A stretch of 64,000 bases of DNA from Halosimplex rubrum (GTDB lineage Archaea > Halobacteriota > Halobacteria > Halobacteriales > Haloarculaceae), in assembly GCF_013415885.1 (NCBI RefSeq), contig NZ_CP058910.1:3534001-3598000 (forward strand), written 5' to 3'. The position numbers and the translations under genes are program-made. Below the pieces are notes generated by a model. The model worked only from the letters and a program-made list of their open reading frames with translations, did no database searches and was not told the origin of the DNA. Numbering within the stretch: position 1 is the stretch's first letter; each line of letters begins with the position of its first letter. Positions 45,292 through 53,875 of this stretch are shown piece after piece.

Positions 45292-48000
45292 GTGACTATC
45301 CGCGGCGTCGTCGTCGACGTGAGCGAGCCGAAGACCGTCTCGACGCAGTACGGCGAGAGCGAACTCGTCGAGGTGGACCTCCGGCCGGATCGGGGACGGG
45401 GCGAACCGACGACGGTGACGCTGTGGGACAAGTGGACCGAGACGGCGACGTACCTCGAACCCGGGATGGAACTCGCCGTCACGAACCCCGAGGAACGCGA
45501 GTACCGCGGGGAACAGCAGTTCTCGACGACCGGCGACTCGATGGTCGTCGTCGAGCCCGACTTCCTCGTGGACGTGACCGACGTGCGCTCGTGGGTGCAG
45601 TGCCCGCGGATGTACTACCTCAACAAGATCGGCGGCACGCCAAACGCCTACCCGGTCGTCAAGGGGACCATCGTCCACGAGGTGTTCGGCGACCTCCTCC
45701 GCGGGCGGGATCTCGACGAGTCCATCGACGAGCGCGTCGAGGAGGCCGGCCTCGAACTCGGGATGCTCGGCCGGAGCGCCGACGAAGTGCGGGAAGAGGT
45801 GCGCCAGAACGCCTCGGCCATCGAGGGGTGGCTCCAGCAGGGGACGCTCACCGAGGGCGACGAGTGGCGTTCGGAGATGACCCTGGTCAGCGAGACTTAC
45901 GGACTGAAGGGGCGGGCCGACGCGGTGCGGCGCGGGATGCCCGTCGAGCTGAAGACGGGCAAGAACACCAAGCGCGAGCCGCGGTTCCACGACAAGGTGC
46001 AGGCGACCTGCTACGCGCTCATCCTCGGCGAACGCCGCGGCGAGCCGCCCGACACGGGCACCCTGCTGTACACCAAGAACGCGGCCGTCGAGCGCAACGA
46101 GGAGAGCGGCGACCTCTCGCCGGCCAAGGAGTTCTCCATCGGCTCGGGCTTCCTGAAGTTCGTCCTCCGCACGCGGAACGCCCTGGCGGCGATGGAACAC
46201 GACGCCGACGTGCCGACGGGCTACGAGGCCGACGCCAAGTGCGAGTACTGCTTCGAGCAGGACACCTGCATGGCCGTCTCCGGCCGGCTCGGCCAGGAGT
46301 CGAAGGCCGGGGTGGTCGGCTCACCCGTCCCCGAGGAGGAGCGCGACTACTTCGACCGCGTCTACGAGTCGATCGAGCGCGAACGGCGGGCCGTCCACCG
46401 CGAGTACGCCAAGCTCTGGGAGCAGAGCCCCGCCGAGCGGGCCGACGACGACCGCGCGCTGGTGAACCTCGAACCGACCGAGCGGACCGAACTCGACGGC
46501 GGCCGCTGGGAGCTGCGCGCCCGCGGGACCGGCGCCGTCTCGAAGATCCGCGAGGGCGACCTCGTGCTGGCCAGCGACGGCGACCCAATCGCTGGCGAGG
46601 CCGAACTCGCCCGTGTGGAGCGATTAGGACCCGAAGTCGTCGTCACCGCCGACGAACCGGTCGAACTGCACCGCCTCGACGTGTACCCCTCCGAACTCTC
46701 CACCGATCGGATGCTCACCGCGTTGCACGACGCCGTCCTCACCCAGTCGCCCGAGGAGAAGGACGTGCTCTTCGGCCGGCGGGAGCCCGACTTTTCGGCC
46801 GTCGAGGAGACGTTCGTCCCGAACAACGACGCCCAGGACGAGGCCGTTTCCCTCGCCGTCGGCTGCGAGGACTGCGCGCTGATCCACGGGCCGCCCGGCA
46901 CCGGCAAGACGTATACGCTGGCACACATCGTGCAAGCGCTGGTCAAGGACGGCGAGCGCGTCCTGCTGTCGGCCTTCACGAACCGCGCCGTGGACAACGC
47001 GCTCGAAGCGCTCGTCGACCAGGGGTTCGACGACTTCGTCCGCGTCGGCACCGAGAGCGGCGTCCGCGACGACATGCAGGAGTACCGGCTGGAGCGGGCG
47101 GGCGACCCCGACGAGCGCGTGGCGGAACTGCGGGACGCGCAGGTCGTCGCGGCCACGACCGCGACCTGCGGCTCGCGGATCATGCGCGAGCAGGCGTTCG
47201 ACGCGGCCGTCGTCGACGAGGCGGGCCAGCTCACCGAACCCGGGACGCTGGCGGCGACGAACCTCGCCGAGCGGTTCGTCCTCGTCGGCGACCACCAGCA
47301 GCTCCCGCCGGTCGTCCAGGCCGACGAACCCGAGCCGTCGGACCTCCCGACCGACGAGGACGGGAATCCCGCGCCGGGCGCGACGCTCTCCCGGTCGCTG
47401 TTCCAGCGGCTCATCGAGCGCTACCCCGACGCCTCGGTGATGCTCGACCGCCAGTACCGGATGGCCCAGCGCATCCAGGCGTTCGCCTCGCGGGAGTTCT
47501 ACGGCGGGCAGTTGCGCCCGGCGACCGGCGAGGTCGCCGGCCAGCACCTCCGCCAGCTCGACGTCGTCGACGTCGATGCACTGCCCGAGCGCCTCAGCGA
47601 TCAGGTGGCGTTCGTCGACCCCGACGGCCGCGCCGAGGGCAACACCAATCCCATCGAGGCCGAAACGATCGCCGAGACGGTGGCGGCCTACCGCGAGGCC
47701 GGCGTCCCGGCCGAAGAGATCGGCGTCATCGCGCCGTTCCGGGCCCAGGTCGCCGAGATCGGCAAGCACGTCCCCGACGCGGTGGCCGTCGACACGGTCG
47801 ACCGCTTCCAGGGGTCCAGCAAGGAGGTCATCGTCATCTCCTTCGTCGCCACAGGCTCGCTCGACTCCCCCATCTTCGAGGACTACCGCCGCATCAACGT
47901 CGCGCTGACCCGGGCGAAGAAAGCGCTCGTTCTCGTCGGCGACGCCGACGCGCTGGGTACCGACGACACCTACGGTCGCATGGTCGAGTGGGCGCGCTGA
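45292..48000 (+). CDS. Dna2-like nuclease-helicase
   Basis: The 902-residue protein combines a PD-(D/E)XK nuclease and an SF1 helicase and acts in replication and recombination (flap and end processing). It starts at a GTG (45292) with a beta-rich OB-like domain. The nuclease carries four Fe-S Cys: C104 (WVQCPRM), C317, C320 and C326 (CEYCFEQDTC). VPVELKTGKNTK-type sequence (PVELKTGKN) gives the nuclease Lys. The helicase motifs are [14 protein letters not shown] (about residue 533), VVDEAGQLTEP, VGDHQQLPPV and TVDRFQGSSKEVI. The T-run at 45261-45265 is placed as its promoter or as the terminator of the MoxR gene. Confidence 0.94.
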   Translation: MTIRGVVVDVSEPKTVSTQYGESELVEVDLRPDRGRGEPTTVTLWDKWTETATYLEPGMELAVTNPEEREYRGEQQFSTTGDSMVVVEPDFLVDVTDVRSWVQCPRMYYLNKIGGTPNAYPVVKGTIVHEVFGDLLRGRDLDESIDERVEEAGLELGMLGRSADEVREEVRQNASAIEGWLQQGTLTEGDEWRSEMTLVSETYGLKGRADAVRRGMPVELKTGKNTKREPRFHDKVQATCYALILGERRGEPPDTGTLLYTKNAAVERNEESGDLSPAKEFSIGSGFLKFVLRTRNALAAMEHDADVPTGYEADAKCEYCFEQDTCMAVSGRLGQESKAGVVGSPVPEEERDYFDRVYESIERERRAVHREYAKLWEQSPAERADDDRALVNLEPTERTELDGGRWELRARGTGAVSKIREGDLVLASDGDPIAGEAELARVERLGPEVVVTADEPVELHRLDVYPSELSTDRMLTALHDAVLTQSPEEKDVLFGRREPDFSAVEETFVPNNDAQDEAVSLAVGCEDCALIHGPPGTGKTYTLAHIVQALVKDGERVLLSAFTNRAVDNALEALVDQGFDDFVRVGTESGVRDDMQEYRLERAGDPDERVAELRDAQVVAATTATCGSRIMREQAFDAAVVDEAGQLTEPGTLAATNLAERFVLVGDHQQLPPVVQADEPEPSDLPTDEDGNPAPGATLSRSLFQRLIERYPDASVMLDRQYRMAQRIQAFASREFYGGQLRPATGEVAGQHLRQLDVVDVDALPERLSDQVAFVDPDGRAEGNTNPIEAETIAETVAAYREAGVPAEEIGVIAPFRAQVAEIGKHVPDAVAVDTVDRFQGSSKEVIVISFVATGSLDSPIFEDYRRINVALTRAKKALVLVGDADALGTDDTYGRMVEWAR

Positions 48001-48045
48001 CCGCCGGACCCCGATCTCACCGCTAGCGCCGCCCCATCGCCGATT

Positions 48046-48183
48046 TCCACTTCCGCCCCGTGGCTATCACTTTTGACTAGTGAATCGTCGCTCCACTTTC
48101 ACCGTGTGGCCAGAATTTATATCTAGTTCCGTACCGTTTCAGTTTCACTCCGTGGCGAGGTTTTATTACTAGGGATCGGCGCT
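48046..48183. repeat. Three tandem repeats with exact 46-bp period
   Basis: Conserved 35-base units start at 48046, 48092 and 48138. Each has the pattern C-rich start, CGTGGC near its middle, a T-rich run and CTAG at the end; the 11-base joins between them are not conserved. The units are AT-richer than the flanks. They lie between dna2 and the PAP2 gene. Each could be a protein-binding site; the second holds a TATA-like TTTATAT. Confidence 0.8.
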
Positions 48184-48209
48184 CGTCGCCCGCCACCGCC
48201 GGAGGGAAG

Positions 48210-48217
48210 CTATAAGC
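48210..48217 (+). promoter_or_regulatory. TATA-like element of the PAP2 gene
   Basis: CTATAAGC is centred about 27 bases before the ATG at 48241, giving a leaderless transcript. It lies 27 bases after the last 46-bp repeat, so the repeats occupy the upstream activator position. Confidence 0.55.
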
Positions 48218-48240
48218 GGGCGGCGGGCCGCGGGTCGGGT

Positions 48241-49107
48241 ATGTTCCGGCTGGTCGCGGCGAGCGAGGCGATCCGGGGCGCGATCCCGCCCGGGTTGGTG
48301 CCGCTGTTCGGGCTGCTCACGGTGCTGGGGAGCGCGAAGTTCCTGATGGTGGCGCTGTCGCTGGCGTACTGGAACGACCAGTCCCGGCGGCGGGAACTGC
48401 TGACGGTGGTCGGCGTCGCCTTCGTCGCGGTGTCGGTGACGCTGGCGCTGAAGTACTGGTTCGGACTGCCGAGGCCGCCGGCGGCCGTCCGACGGGTCGC
48501 GGTCGATCCCAGCCCCGTCGGGTTCCCGAGCGGCCACGCCATCGCGGCGACGACCGTCTACGGAGGCACGTTGGTCGCGCTCGACCGCTATCGAGACCCG
48601 AAACTCCTGGTAGGGACGGGCGCGCTGGTCGCGCTCGTGGGCCTCTCGCGGGTCGTCATCGGCGTCCACTACCTCGGCGACGTGCTGGCCGGCGTCGCCG
48701 TGGGGCTGGTGATGGTCGGCGTCGTCGCCGTCGCCGTCGATTACGGGCCGGCCGTCGACCGCGGTCCGGCCGTCGTCTTCGGCCTCGCGGTCGTCTGTTC
48801 GGTGCCCGCGGTGATTCTGACGACCGCGCCCGGCGACGCGGCGCTCGCCGCGGGCGGGAGCGTCGGCGGATTCGTGGGCGCGGCCTGGCGAACACGCGCC
48901 GAGCGGTTCCGCTCCCGGGTCGAGCGGGTCGCGGTCACCGTCGGTGGCGTCGCGTTCGTCGGCGTGGCCATCGCCGTCGTCGAGACGGTCGAACCGCTGC
49001 TTGTCCCTACCGCGGCCGTCAACGCCGCGCTGGTGTTCGGAATCGTCTCGCTCCCGTCGCTGGTCGGCCGGTTCGACGGGTTCGGCAGTTCGACGCCCGC
49101 CGACTGA
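48241..49107 (+). CDS. PAP2-family membrane phosphatase
   Basis: The 288-residue protein has about eight membrane helices. The acid phosphatase signature is in three parts: KYWFGLPRPP, GFPSGHAIAATT and SRVVIGVHYLGDVLAG, carrying the Lys, Arg, Ser-Gly-His and Arg-His-Asp residues. Members remove phosphate from isoprenoid or lipid phosphates at the membrane surface, so a role in recycling dolichol or archaeal lipid phosphates is likely. The last 120 residues are extra helices. It follows the three 46-bp repeats. Confidence 0.93.
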   Translation: MFRLVAASEAIRGAIPPGLVPLFGLLTVLGSAKFLMVALSLAYWNDQSRRRELLTVVGVAFVAVSVTLALKYWFGLPRPPAAVRRVAVDPSPVGFPSGHAIAATTVYGGTLVALDRYRDPKLLVGTGALVALVGLSRVVIGVHYLGDVLAGVAVGLVMVGVVAVAVDYGPAVDRGPAVVFGLAVVCSVPAVILTTAPGDAALAAGGSVGGFVGAAWRTRAERFRSRVERVAVTVGGVAFVGVAIAVVETVEPLLVPTAAVNAALVFGIVSLPSLVGRFDGFGSSTPAD

Positions 49108-51024: not shown

Positions 51025-53769
51025 TCAGTTCGCGCCGAGGCCGGGTTCGGCGCCCTCGTCGCCGATCTCCTCCATGACCCGCTCGTGAAACCGCTGGAGC
51101 ACCTCGCTCTCGTCCTCGGCGAGCACCACGTCCGAGGCCATCAGCGTCGCGAGGCCGAAGGCGCGGGGCGACGGCGACCGGACGCGGCAGTGCTCGACGG
51201 CGACCTCGTCGCGGTCGATGGCCGCCAGCACGTCCTCGATGGCCCCGACGTTGAGCTTGTCTTCGAGGATCTCGCGGTAGGTCTCCTCGATCACGGCAAA
51301 CCCCTCCAGGTCCTCTGCGAACCCGAGCAGCATCTCGGAGTTCATCTGCTGTTCGGCCGCGGACTTCTCGTAGCCCTTGTAGCGTTTGAGGATCATCAGC
51401 GCCCGCGTCGCGTCGATCCGGAAATAGCGCTGGAGCAGGTCGGTCCCCTCCAGGCTGGCGCGCAGGTCCGCGCGCACGTCGGCGGGGTGGATGTCGTCGA
51501 CGACGCCGAGCACGTCGACCTTCCGGTTGAGCGGCATCGACAGGGAGAAGCCGTTGTCGGCGACGGCGACCTGGACGTTGGCGTTGGCCTCCTGTGCGAT
51601 CCGGTAGGCCAGCAGCCGCGAGAGCCCGTCGTTGAACCGCCGGCCGTAGTTCGAGTGGACGTAGTACCGGCGCTCGTACTCCTCGCGGTCGAGTTCCTCC
51701 TCGACGACCAGCCGCTCGTCGGTGCTGACGCTCTCGAAACCGGCGTACTTCACCTGCTCCTCGAACATCCGCGCGACCGCGCGGACGCTGTTCTCGTCGA
51801 GCGGGTACTCCCGCAGCCAGTGGCGCACGGCGCCGACGCTCCCCCGTTCCATCTTGTCCAGCAGTTCCCGCTGGAAGGTCAGGATCTCGCGACCGAGGTC
51901 GTAGGAGAGGGGCAGCCGTTCGGAGAACCACGACGGGACGGTCGGGCGAGCGCTCGTCGGGTCGACGTACACCTTCGACCCGCGGCGGTAGCGGTACTCG
52001 AAGTTCTGGCCGCCGAGGACGAACACGTCGCCGGATTCGAGGGTGTCGAGGTACGACTCGTCCAGTTGCCCGACCCACTCGTCGCCCGAGCGGGTGAACA
52101 CGTCGCAGGTAAACGAATCGGGGATGGTGCCGATGTTGGTCATGTAGATGACCCGCGCGAGCCGGCCGCGCTTGCCCATCAGGCGCTCGCCGACGGGGTA
52201 CTCCTCGTAGTGGTGCTCGCCGTCGGGCGCGTCGTTGGTGTCGCGCCACACCTTCGCGTAGACGTTCTTGTCCGCCATCCCCTCGTAATCGGCGGTGAGA
52301 TAGCGCATGAGCGACTCCCACTCCTCGTCGGTATACGTCCGATAGGGGTACGCTCGTTCGAGGATCCCGCGGATCTCCGCTTCGGGGCGGATCTCGGCGA
52401 TGGCCATGCCGTAGACGTGCTGGGCGGCCACGTCCTGGGCCCGCTCGGGGACGAACACCCGGTCGACGAACCCCTCCTCGGCCTTCTTGAGCATCACCGC
52501 GCACTCGACGAGTTCGTCCCGGTCCAGGGCGACGACCCGTCCCGTCACCGTCTCGCCGAGCTGGTGGCCCGCCCGCCCCACCCGCTGGAGGAGGGACGCG
52601 ACGGACTTCGGGGATCCGACCTGTACGACGAGGTCGATGTGGGGCATGTCGATCCCCAGCTCCAGGCTCGTCGAGGTCGTCACGACGTCGAGCTCGCCCG
52701 ATTTGAGGGCGCGTTCGATCTCCTGGCGGCGCTCCTTCGAGAGGCTGCCGTGGTGACAGCCCGAGTTGTCCTCGTCGTAGTCGTCCGTTCGCTCGCGGAG
52801 GTTCTGCAGGACGCGCTCGGCGCCCGACCGGGTGTTGGTGAACACCAGCGTGTTGGTGTGGTCGCCGATCAGGTCGTGGAGGTCCCGATAGAAGCGGTCG
52901 TTGACGACGCCCGGCGGCGTGTTCACCAGATCGTCGGTCGGACACGTCAGTTCCACGTCGAACTCCCGGGCGAAGCGGGCGTCGACGAGTTCGTAGTCGC
53001 GCGGGTCGCCGCCGGGCGTCTCCTGTCCCACGAGGAACTCCGCCATCGCGTCGAGCGGTTCGACCGTCGCCGAGCAGCCGATGCGGGTCGGCGACCCGTC
53101 GGCGAGCGCCTCCAGCCGCTCCAGCGATACCGAGAGGTGGGTCCCGCGCTTGTTCTCGGCGAGGCTGTGGATCTCGTCGACGACGACGTACTCCACCGTC
53201 CGCAGTTTCTCCCGGAATTTGGGGCTGTTCAGGAGGATGGCGAGGGTCTCGGGCGTCGTATTGAGGATGTGGGGCGTCTCCCGAAGCATCTTCTGGCGTT
53301 CGCTGTCGCTCGTGTCGCCGTGACGGATCGCGTGGCGGATCTCGGCGTCCTCGCCGCGGTCGTCCAACTTCTCGGTGATCCCGTCGAGGGGCACTTCGAG
53401 GTTGCGGTGGATGTCGTTGGCGAGCGACTTCAGCGGGGAGACGTACAGGCAGTAGACGGAGTTTTCCAGCCCGTCGGCGCGCTCGCGGCGGAACAGCTCG
53501 TTGATCACCGCCGAGAAACTCGCCAGCGTCTTCCCCGAACCTGTCGGAGCGGCGATAAGTGCGTTCTCGCCCTCGTGGATGAGCGGGACGGCCTCCTTCT
53601 GGGGCGGCGTGAAGAAGCCGCCGTTCTCGGGGACGAACGCGCCGAACTGCTCGACCCACCACTCCCGGACCGGCGGTTCCAGCAGGTCGAGTACGTGGCC
53701 GTCGTCGATCTCGACACCGGCGGCGTCGACACCCACGTCTGCCGCGTCCAACAGCTCGCGTCCTCCCAT
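51025..53769 (-). CDS. lhr: Lhr-type superfamily 2 helicase
   Basis: The 914-residue ATP-dependent helicase begins MGGRELLDAADVGVDAAG. Motif I is AAPTGSGKTLASF (about residue 73), motif II DEIHSLAENKRGTHL (about 198), motif III GCSATV and motif VI in VQRVGRAGHQLGE-type sequence (QRVGRAGH). The C-terminal half has the winged-helix and beta-barrel Lhr-CTD-like domains (GFSLSMPLNRKVDV and others). Lhr proteins act in DNA repair and replication-linked unwinding in archaea. The start at 53769 is the Met giving the known N-terminus; the frame is open upstream. An array of short repeats lies upstream. Confidence 0.94.
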   Translation of the reverse strand: MGGRELLDAADVGVDAAGVEIDDGHVLDLLEPPVREWWVEQFGAFVPENGGFFTPPQKEAVPLIHEGENALIAAPTGSGKTLASFSAVINELFRRERADGLENSVYCLYVSPLKSLANDIHRNLEVPLDGITEKLDDRGEDAEIRHAIRHGDTSDSERQKMLRETPHILNTTPETLAILLNSPKFREKLRTVEYVVVDEIHSLAENKRGTHLSVSLERLEALADGSPTRIGCSATVEPLDAMAEFLVGQETPGGDPRDYELVDARFAREFDVELTCPTDDLVNTPPGVVNDRFYRDLHDLIGDHTNTLVFTNTRSGAERVLQNLRERTDDYDEDNSGCHHGSLSKERRQEIERALKSGELDVVTTSTSLELGIDMPHIDLVVQVGSPKSVASLLQRVGRAGHQLGETVTGRVVALDRDELVECAVMLKKAEEGFVDRVFVPERAQDVAAQHVYGMAIAEIRPEAEIRGILERAYPYRTYTDEEWESLMRYLTADYEGMADKNVYAKVWRDTNDAPDGEHHYEEYPVGERLMGKRGRLARVIYMTNIGTIPDSFTCDVFTRSGDEWVGQLDESYLDTLESGDVFVLGGQNFEYRYRRGSKVYVDPTSARPTVPSWFSERLPLSYDLGREILTFQRELLDKMERGSVGAVRHWLREYPLDENSVRAVARMFEEQVKYAGFESVSTDERLVVEEELDREEYERRYYVHSNYGRRFNDGLSRLLAYRIAQEANANVQVAVADNGFSLSMPLNRKVDVLGVVDDIHPADVRADLRASLEGTDLLQRYFRIDATRALMILKRYKGYEKSAAEQQMNSEMLLGFAEDLEGFAVIEETYREILEDKLNVGAIEDVLAAIDRDEVAVEHCRVRSPSPRAFGLATLMASDVVLAEDESEVLQRFHERVMEEIGDEGAEPGLGAN

Positions 53770-53875
53770 CTCGTCGGCCGGTTAGGCCCGTGTCGGCAAG
53801 TGGGTTCCGACCGGAGGGCGGAAGTGAAAACGGCCGTCGAGAGCGTTCGAACAGGCGTTTCCGGGTTCGGTGTTC

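Follow-up and report, generated by a model that had tools for sequence, protein, structure and literature searches.

The window, by which we mean the whole 64,000-nucleotide stretch of Halosimplex rubrum DNA that was analysed, contains an array of three units located between a dna2-like gene and a gene encoding a PAP2-superfamily phosphatase (Table 1); the domain matches agree with the flanking genes named in an earlier note on this sequence. That note had also described a regular layout, which stands: the unit starts are spaced by exactly 46 bp, the core spans 48045-48172, and 20 of 35 columns are identical across all three units, whereas 1000 dinucleotide-preserving shuffles of the local sequence (241 bp), scored at every period between 35 and 90, gave no more than 12. 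The array is the best triple anywhere in the 64 kb window and, according to a genome search, the sole copy in H. rubrum. Within this genome the units are only 54-59% identical to each other, with a consensus of approximately TTYCACTTTCRC-YNYGTGGC-N5-TTTAT-NN-CTAG. The note had listed CGTGGC, a T-rich run, and CTAG as shared; a word is indeed invariant, but it is GTGGC (unit 2 reads TGTGGC), and the T-rich run is not uniform, the TATA-like position being occupied by TTTATA/TTTTAT in units 2 and 3 and by CACTTTTGA in unit 1, an atypical form that is nevertheless conserved within Halosimplex.

Table 1. Features of the array, its flanking genes, and the PAP2 core promoter (positions in the window).
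Feature	Position	Strand	Description
dna2-like nuclease/helicase gene, upstream neighbour of the array	45292..48000	+	Dna2 domain, PF08696
Unit 1, 46 bp	48042..48087	+	TTCCACTTCCGC box, CCCGTGGC, CACTTTTGACTAG
UV-B/DNA-damage-type box, unit 1	48045..48056	+	1 mismatch to TTYCACTTTCRC
Unit 2, 46 bp	48088..48133	+	CTCCACTTTCAC box, 13 bp, TTTATA, CTAG
UV-B/DNA-damage-type box, unit 2	48091..48102	+	1 mismatch to TTYCACTTTCRC
Unit 3, 46 bp	48134..48179	+	TTTCAGTTTCAC box, CCGTGGC, TTTTATTACTAG
UV-B/DNA-damage-type box, unit 3	48137..48148	+	1 mismatch to TTYCACTTTCRC
TATA-like CTATAAGC, PAP2 core promoter	48210..48217	+	~30 nt before ATG (48241)
PAP2-superfamily phosphatase gene, probable target of the array	48241..49107	+	PF01569

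The TATA box that had been proposed for a leaderless PAP2 gene was recovered in relatives: a TATA-like sequence is kept at the core-promoter position in all seven species having the gene. In H. rubrum it lies ~60 bp downstream of the unit 3 box; depending on the species, 59 to 73 bp separate the last unit from the PAP2 start. No bacterial-type promoter or terminator was found at the array, and no Orc1/Cdc6 gene (TIGR02928) was located within ~320 kb of it, consistent with the earlier remark that none is nearby.

The array directly follows dna2 in all eight Halosimplex genomes, with 3-5 units in each (one extra unit in G004; five in G001, at spacings of 46, 45, 46, and 43), and dna2-PAP2 synteny with the array extends over seven species. 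Unit number and spacing in relatives, on which the earlier note had placed weight, thus fared differently: the 46-bp spacing is not random, but the number varies. Among 84,980 species genomes scanned for the exact pattern, a set from which records very close to the H. rubrum genome had possibly been left out, only H. aquaticum, H. pelagicum, H. carlsbadense, and H. salinum contained it. When 146 genomes of the family were searched with a sequence model of the unit, other genera yielded single sites and no arrays, and a strict two-box pattern, which misses the H. rubrum array itself, detected no array of this type outside Halosimplex in the class. Stacking of the element into an array looks special to the genus. 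In an outgroup genus (g20; L107, L120), PAP2 directly follows dna2 without an array, and in the other neighbours checked genes other than PAP2 follow dna2. Given its presence in all Halosimplex and its absence from the dna2-PAP2 junction of g20, the array was probably gained between these genes in the Halosimplex ancestor. In one fragmented, 71%-complete genome (G007; L104), the most divergent member of the genus, PAP2 is missing and array units 3 and 4 have decayed; dna2 and the decaying array are followed by a small gene that is lipoprotein-like and has no Pfam match, and then by a lactate-racemase-like gene, the one that also follows PAP2 in H. rubrum.

Across six Halosimplex species, the 138 bp of the three shared units aligned with zero indels. 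Pairwise identity in unit columns 4-39 was 83-94%, as compared to 59-74% at four-fold degenerate sites of the dna2 end; in the linkers it was 53-83%. Orthologous units were 84% alike and neighbouring units 59%, unit 1 of one species resembling unit 1 of the others. The units therefore diverged before the species did and each has been maintained on its own, a pattern that speaks against slippage or homogenisation still being at work. On the evidence of these alignments, each unit is under purifying selection and the 46-bp spacing is fixed, as had been suggested; the same three features (conservation above four-fold sites, no indels, and unit-specific conservation) argue for the proposed reading of the units as regulator sites.

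The nature of the unit's left box was overlooked in the earlier note, the interpretation of which is partly supported overall. In Halobacterium sp. NRC-1, TTTCACTTTCA lies upstream of the TATA box in the UV-B-induced genes radA1, top6B, vng17, and vng280, and it also precedes radA of other haloarchaea (PMC2556686). The left box, TTYCACTTTCRC, matches this published radA1/top6B UV-B motif. As TTTCACTTTCA(C), 11-12 bp in length, it carries one mismatch in each H. rubrum unit, whereas G001, G004, and G006 have units with an exact match. Exact TTYCACTTTCRC sites numbered 97 in the eight Halosimplex genomes, as compared to 18 for a reversed-pattern control. Downstream of exact boxes we found radA and top6B (eight genomes each), an Orc1/Cdc6 paralogue (seven), and a gene that we take from its sequence to be RPA (five); threonine dehydratase (four) and what is presumably a Hef-type helicase (two) also followed the box. 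The Halosimplex comparison thereby adds RPA and a conserved Orc1/Cdc6 paralogue to the genes preceded by the box. In the radA, top6B, RPA, and orc promoters the box is oriented towards the gene, with 15-17 bp between it and TATA. Units 2 and 3 of the array show the same order and polarity, directed towards PAP2, but with a gap of 13 bp from box to TTTAT; unit 1 keeps the box and lacks the TATA. Box sequence, position upstream of TATA, and polarity are thus common to the NRC-1 motif and the array. The NRC-1 motif, however, was described as one box per promoter near the start codon, whereas the Halosimplex array has 3-5 boxes at 46-bp steps, additional GTGGC and CTAG blocks, and a separate core promoter downstream of it.

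Our favoured explanation is that the array is probably a cis-regulatory region composed of tandem haloarchaeal DNA-damage (UV-B) promoter elements acting on PAP2. At the level of sequence, the comparisons establish the identity of the box with the published motif, its recurrence at repair and replication genes, the conservation of units and spacing, and the common polarity. Each unit would repeat the element's order and polarity: a YTYCACTTTCRC box, ~13 bp containing GTGGC, a TATA-like TTTAT, and CTAG. A damage-responsive DNA-binding protein would occupy the boxes and, once bound, would raise or time PAP2 transcription. Since PAP2 has its own conserved TATA, the array may serve as an upstream activating region for that core promoter; alternatively, units 2 and 3 may add starts, an inducible transcript then beginning at their TATA-like sequences with a leader of ~50 nt from unit 3. 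Against the damage-element reading stand the one mismatch per box, the 13-bp gap, and the separate PAP2 TATA. A counterpoint to PAP2 as the target is that G007 keeps an array before another gene, in a fragmented and divergent genome; the decay of units where PAP2 is missing in that incomplete genome nonetheless fits a role tied to PAP2. The UV-B box was already known, and no fixed-step conserved array of it, with GTGGC and CTAG, before PAP2 was found in the literature searched; what appears to be new is its multiplication into such an array. The question raised is why a membrane phosphatase would be placed under damage-type control.

The absence of TATA from unit 1, together with the absence of the GTGGC and CTAG blocks from the radA, top6B, and RPA promoters, means that the array may have a regulator of its own. 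Taken further, this leads to a less probable though still appreciable alternative, that of an array of operators serving a PAP2 regulator specific to Halosimplex and with no damage link, the likeness of the box arising from basal-promoter features or convergence. Restriction of the array to one genus and the lack of an obvious repair link for PAP2 are in keeping with such an operator; however, the array agrees with the damage-type promoters of the same genomes in the 12-bp box, in the spacing of box and TATA, and in polarity, and single CACTTTCACYNYGTGGC sites occur elsewhere in the family.

Under the preferred reading, of damage-type elements acting on PAP2, a binding protein would be required, and none was named for the haloarchaeal UV response in the literature searched, in which one 2008 paper gives the motif and assigns no protein to it. 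As a naturally occurring, conserved array of the UV-B box, the Halosimplex sequence makes an ideal bait for such a protein. Orc1-2 of Saccharolobus islandicus, which is not an initiator, recognises ANTTTC in promoters that respond to damage, among them the promoter of its own gene (PMC9738581). Columns 8-13 of the array mostly read A[C/G]TTTC, the second base differing between units (28 Halosimplex units); ANTTTC fits unit 2 (ACTTTC) and unit 3 (AGTTTC) but not unit 1 (ACTTCC), and most of the 28 units fit. The A[C/G]TTTC core and the logic of a damage regulon are thus shared with the Sulfolobus/Saccharolobus DDRE (PMC9738581), as is an orc1/cdc6 gene with the box in its own promoter, although those organisms belong to a different phylum, and it is in them that Orc1-2 binding was shown. 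The Halosimplex gene concerned (L095/L244, G000:C1:4166683-4167865; orthologues L245-L273) has a close orthologue, with ~69-100% identity, in almost every one of the 146 genomes of the family. All Halosimplex have the box in front of this gene (seven exact, one with a mismatch), as do 8 of 22 loci from other genera when up to one mismatch is allowed. A PDB search with its first 119 residues returned Cdc6/Orc chains 2v1u and 2qby as best matches. By analogy, this paralogue is our leading guess for the regulator of the array and a candidate haloarchaeal counterpart of Sulfolobus Orc1-2; because the box lies before it, the link to the Orc1-2 system can be tested directly. A more speculative version, which we think rather unlikely, makes the array a platform on which an Orc1-2-like Orc1/Cdc6 damage regulator binds cooperatively at fixed intervals of 46 bp, so that membrane-lipid metabolism would join the damage regulon in a single genus. 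With 10.5 bp per turn, however, a step of 46 bp makes 4.4 helical turns; consecutive sites would thus face differently on straight B-DNA, a point against simple side-by-side cooperativity. CdrS was also considered as regulator and set aside: ChIP in Haloferax places it at ftsZ1, dacZ, cdc48d, panA, and other genes, but not at radA. Since a threonine ammonia-lyase gene is a CdrS target in Haloferax and has the box upstream in Halosimplex, CdrS is only partly ruled out.

An Orc1/Cdc6-family protein might also occupy several boxes to organise or mark the chromosome rather than to control a gene, as at a nucleoprotein or origin-like site. The fit of columns 8-13 to the S. islandicus Orc1-2 hexamer and the single locus per genome would accord with this, but we judge it improbable: the Orc1/Cdc6 genes are distant, the boxes without exception point to the gene that follows, those at other loci are in promoters, and inspection by eye revealed no origin recognition box. 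Functionless tandem duplication by slippage is very improbable, for although duplication surely gave rise to the array and the extra units (3-5 in all) were added mostly in steps of 46 bp, change is slower in the unit cores than at four-fold sites, indels are absent, and orthologous units are distinct. We give equally little credence to a structured non-coding RNA or processed repeat RNA. Unit 1 does contain TCACT-N7-AGTGA, and units 1 and 2 contain CCAC...GTGG, but unit 3 has an uncompensated TCAG...GTGG, one doubly changed pair was found among 28 predicted, the helices are not repeated per unit, and the array has no Rfam match.

The iteron-like array of the earlier note, or a replication origin, is not supported: the units are not near-identical and have no adjacent initiator gene, the nearest TIGR02928 gene being at least ~320 kb away. 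Nor is a CRISPR array, for the units are diverged rather than identical repeats and the flanks are dna2 and PAP2, not cas. A viral or mobile origin was rejected on the absence of the strict pattern from IMG/VR, where a looser pattern gave two matches, in contigs of 53-55% GC, that look like chance.

Boxes of this type were also observed at other loci. In the window, an Lhr-type helicase gene (51025-53769, - strand) has a near-match, TTTCACTTCCGC, ~50 bp upstream of it (53818-53829, - strand), but a clear TATA is not seen at the expected spacing. XerC-like integrase genes of Halosimplex (L093, L141, L162; G000:C1:4062554-4062623 and G001 copies) have in front of them a pair of TTTCACTTTCAC boxes with a spacing of exactly 58 bp, which suggests that expression of these integrases may be damage-responsive; their promoters resemble the array in having tandem boxes ahead of the gene, but differ in having only two, at 58 bp, and an integrase as target. 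At another locus (L090, G000:C1:1960147), a damage-type box and TATA lie directly upstream of a Cas6-like gene, suggesting that a CRISPR locus may be under damage-type control in that strain. The sequence CACTTTCACCGTGTGGCAACCTGTTTTTA or a variant recurs several times in incomplete genomes of the genera g13 and g16 (L070, L072, L083 and L064, L082), sometimes by masked stretches, and is possibly carried by a mobile element. Finally, the box is present in promoters of HNH-endonuclease and other probable mobile-element genes (L155, L198, L169, L178); some of these promoters add GTGGC or TTTTACTAG and, among single-copy sites, resemble the array unit most closely.
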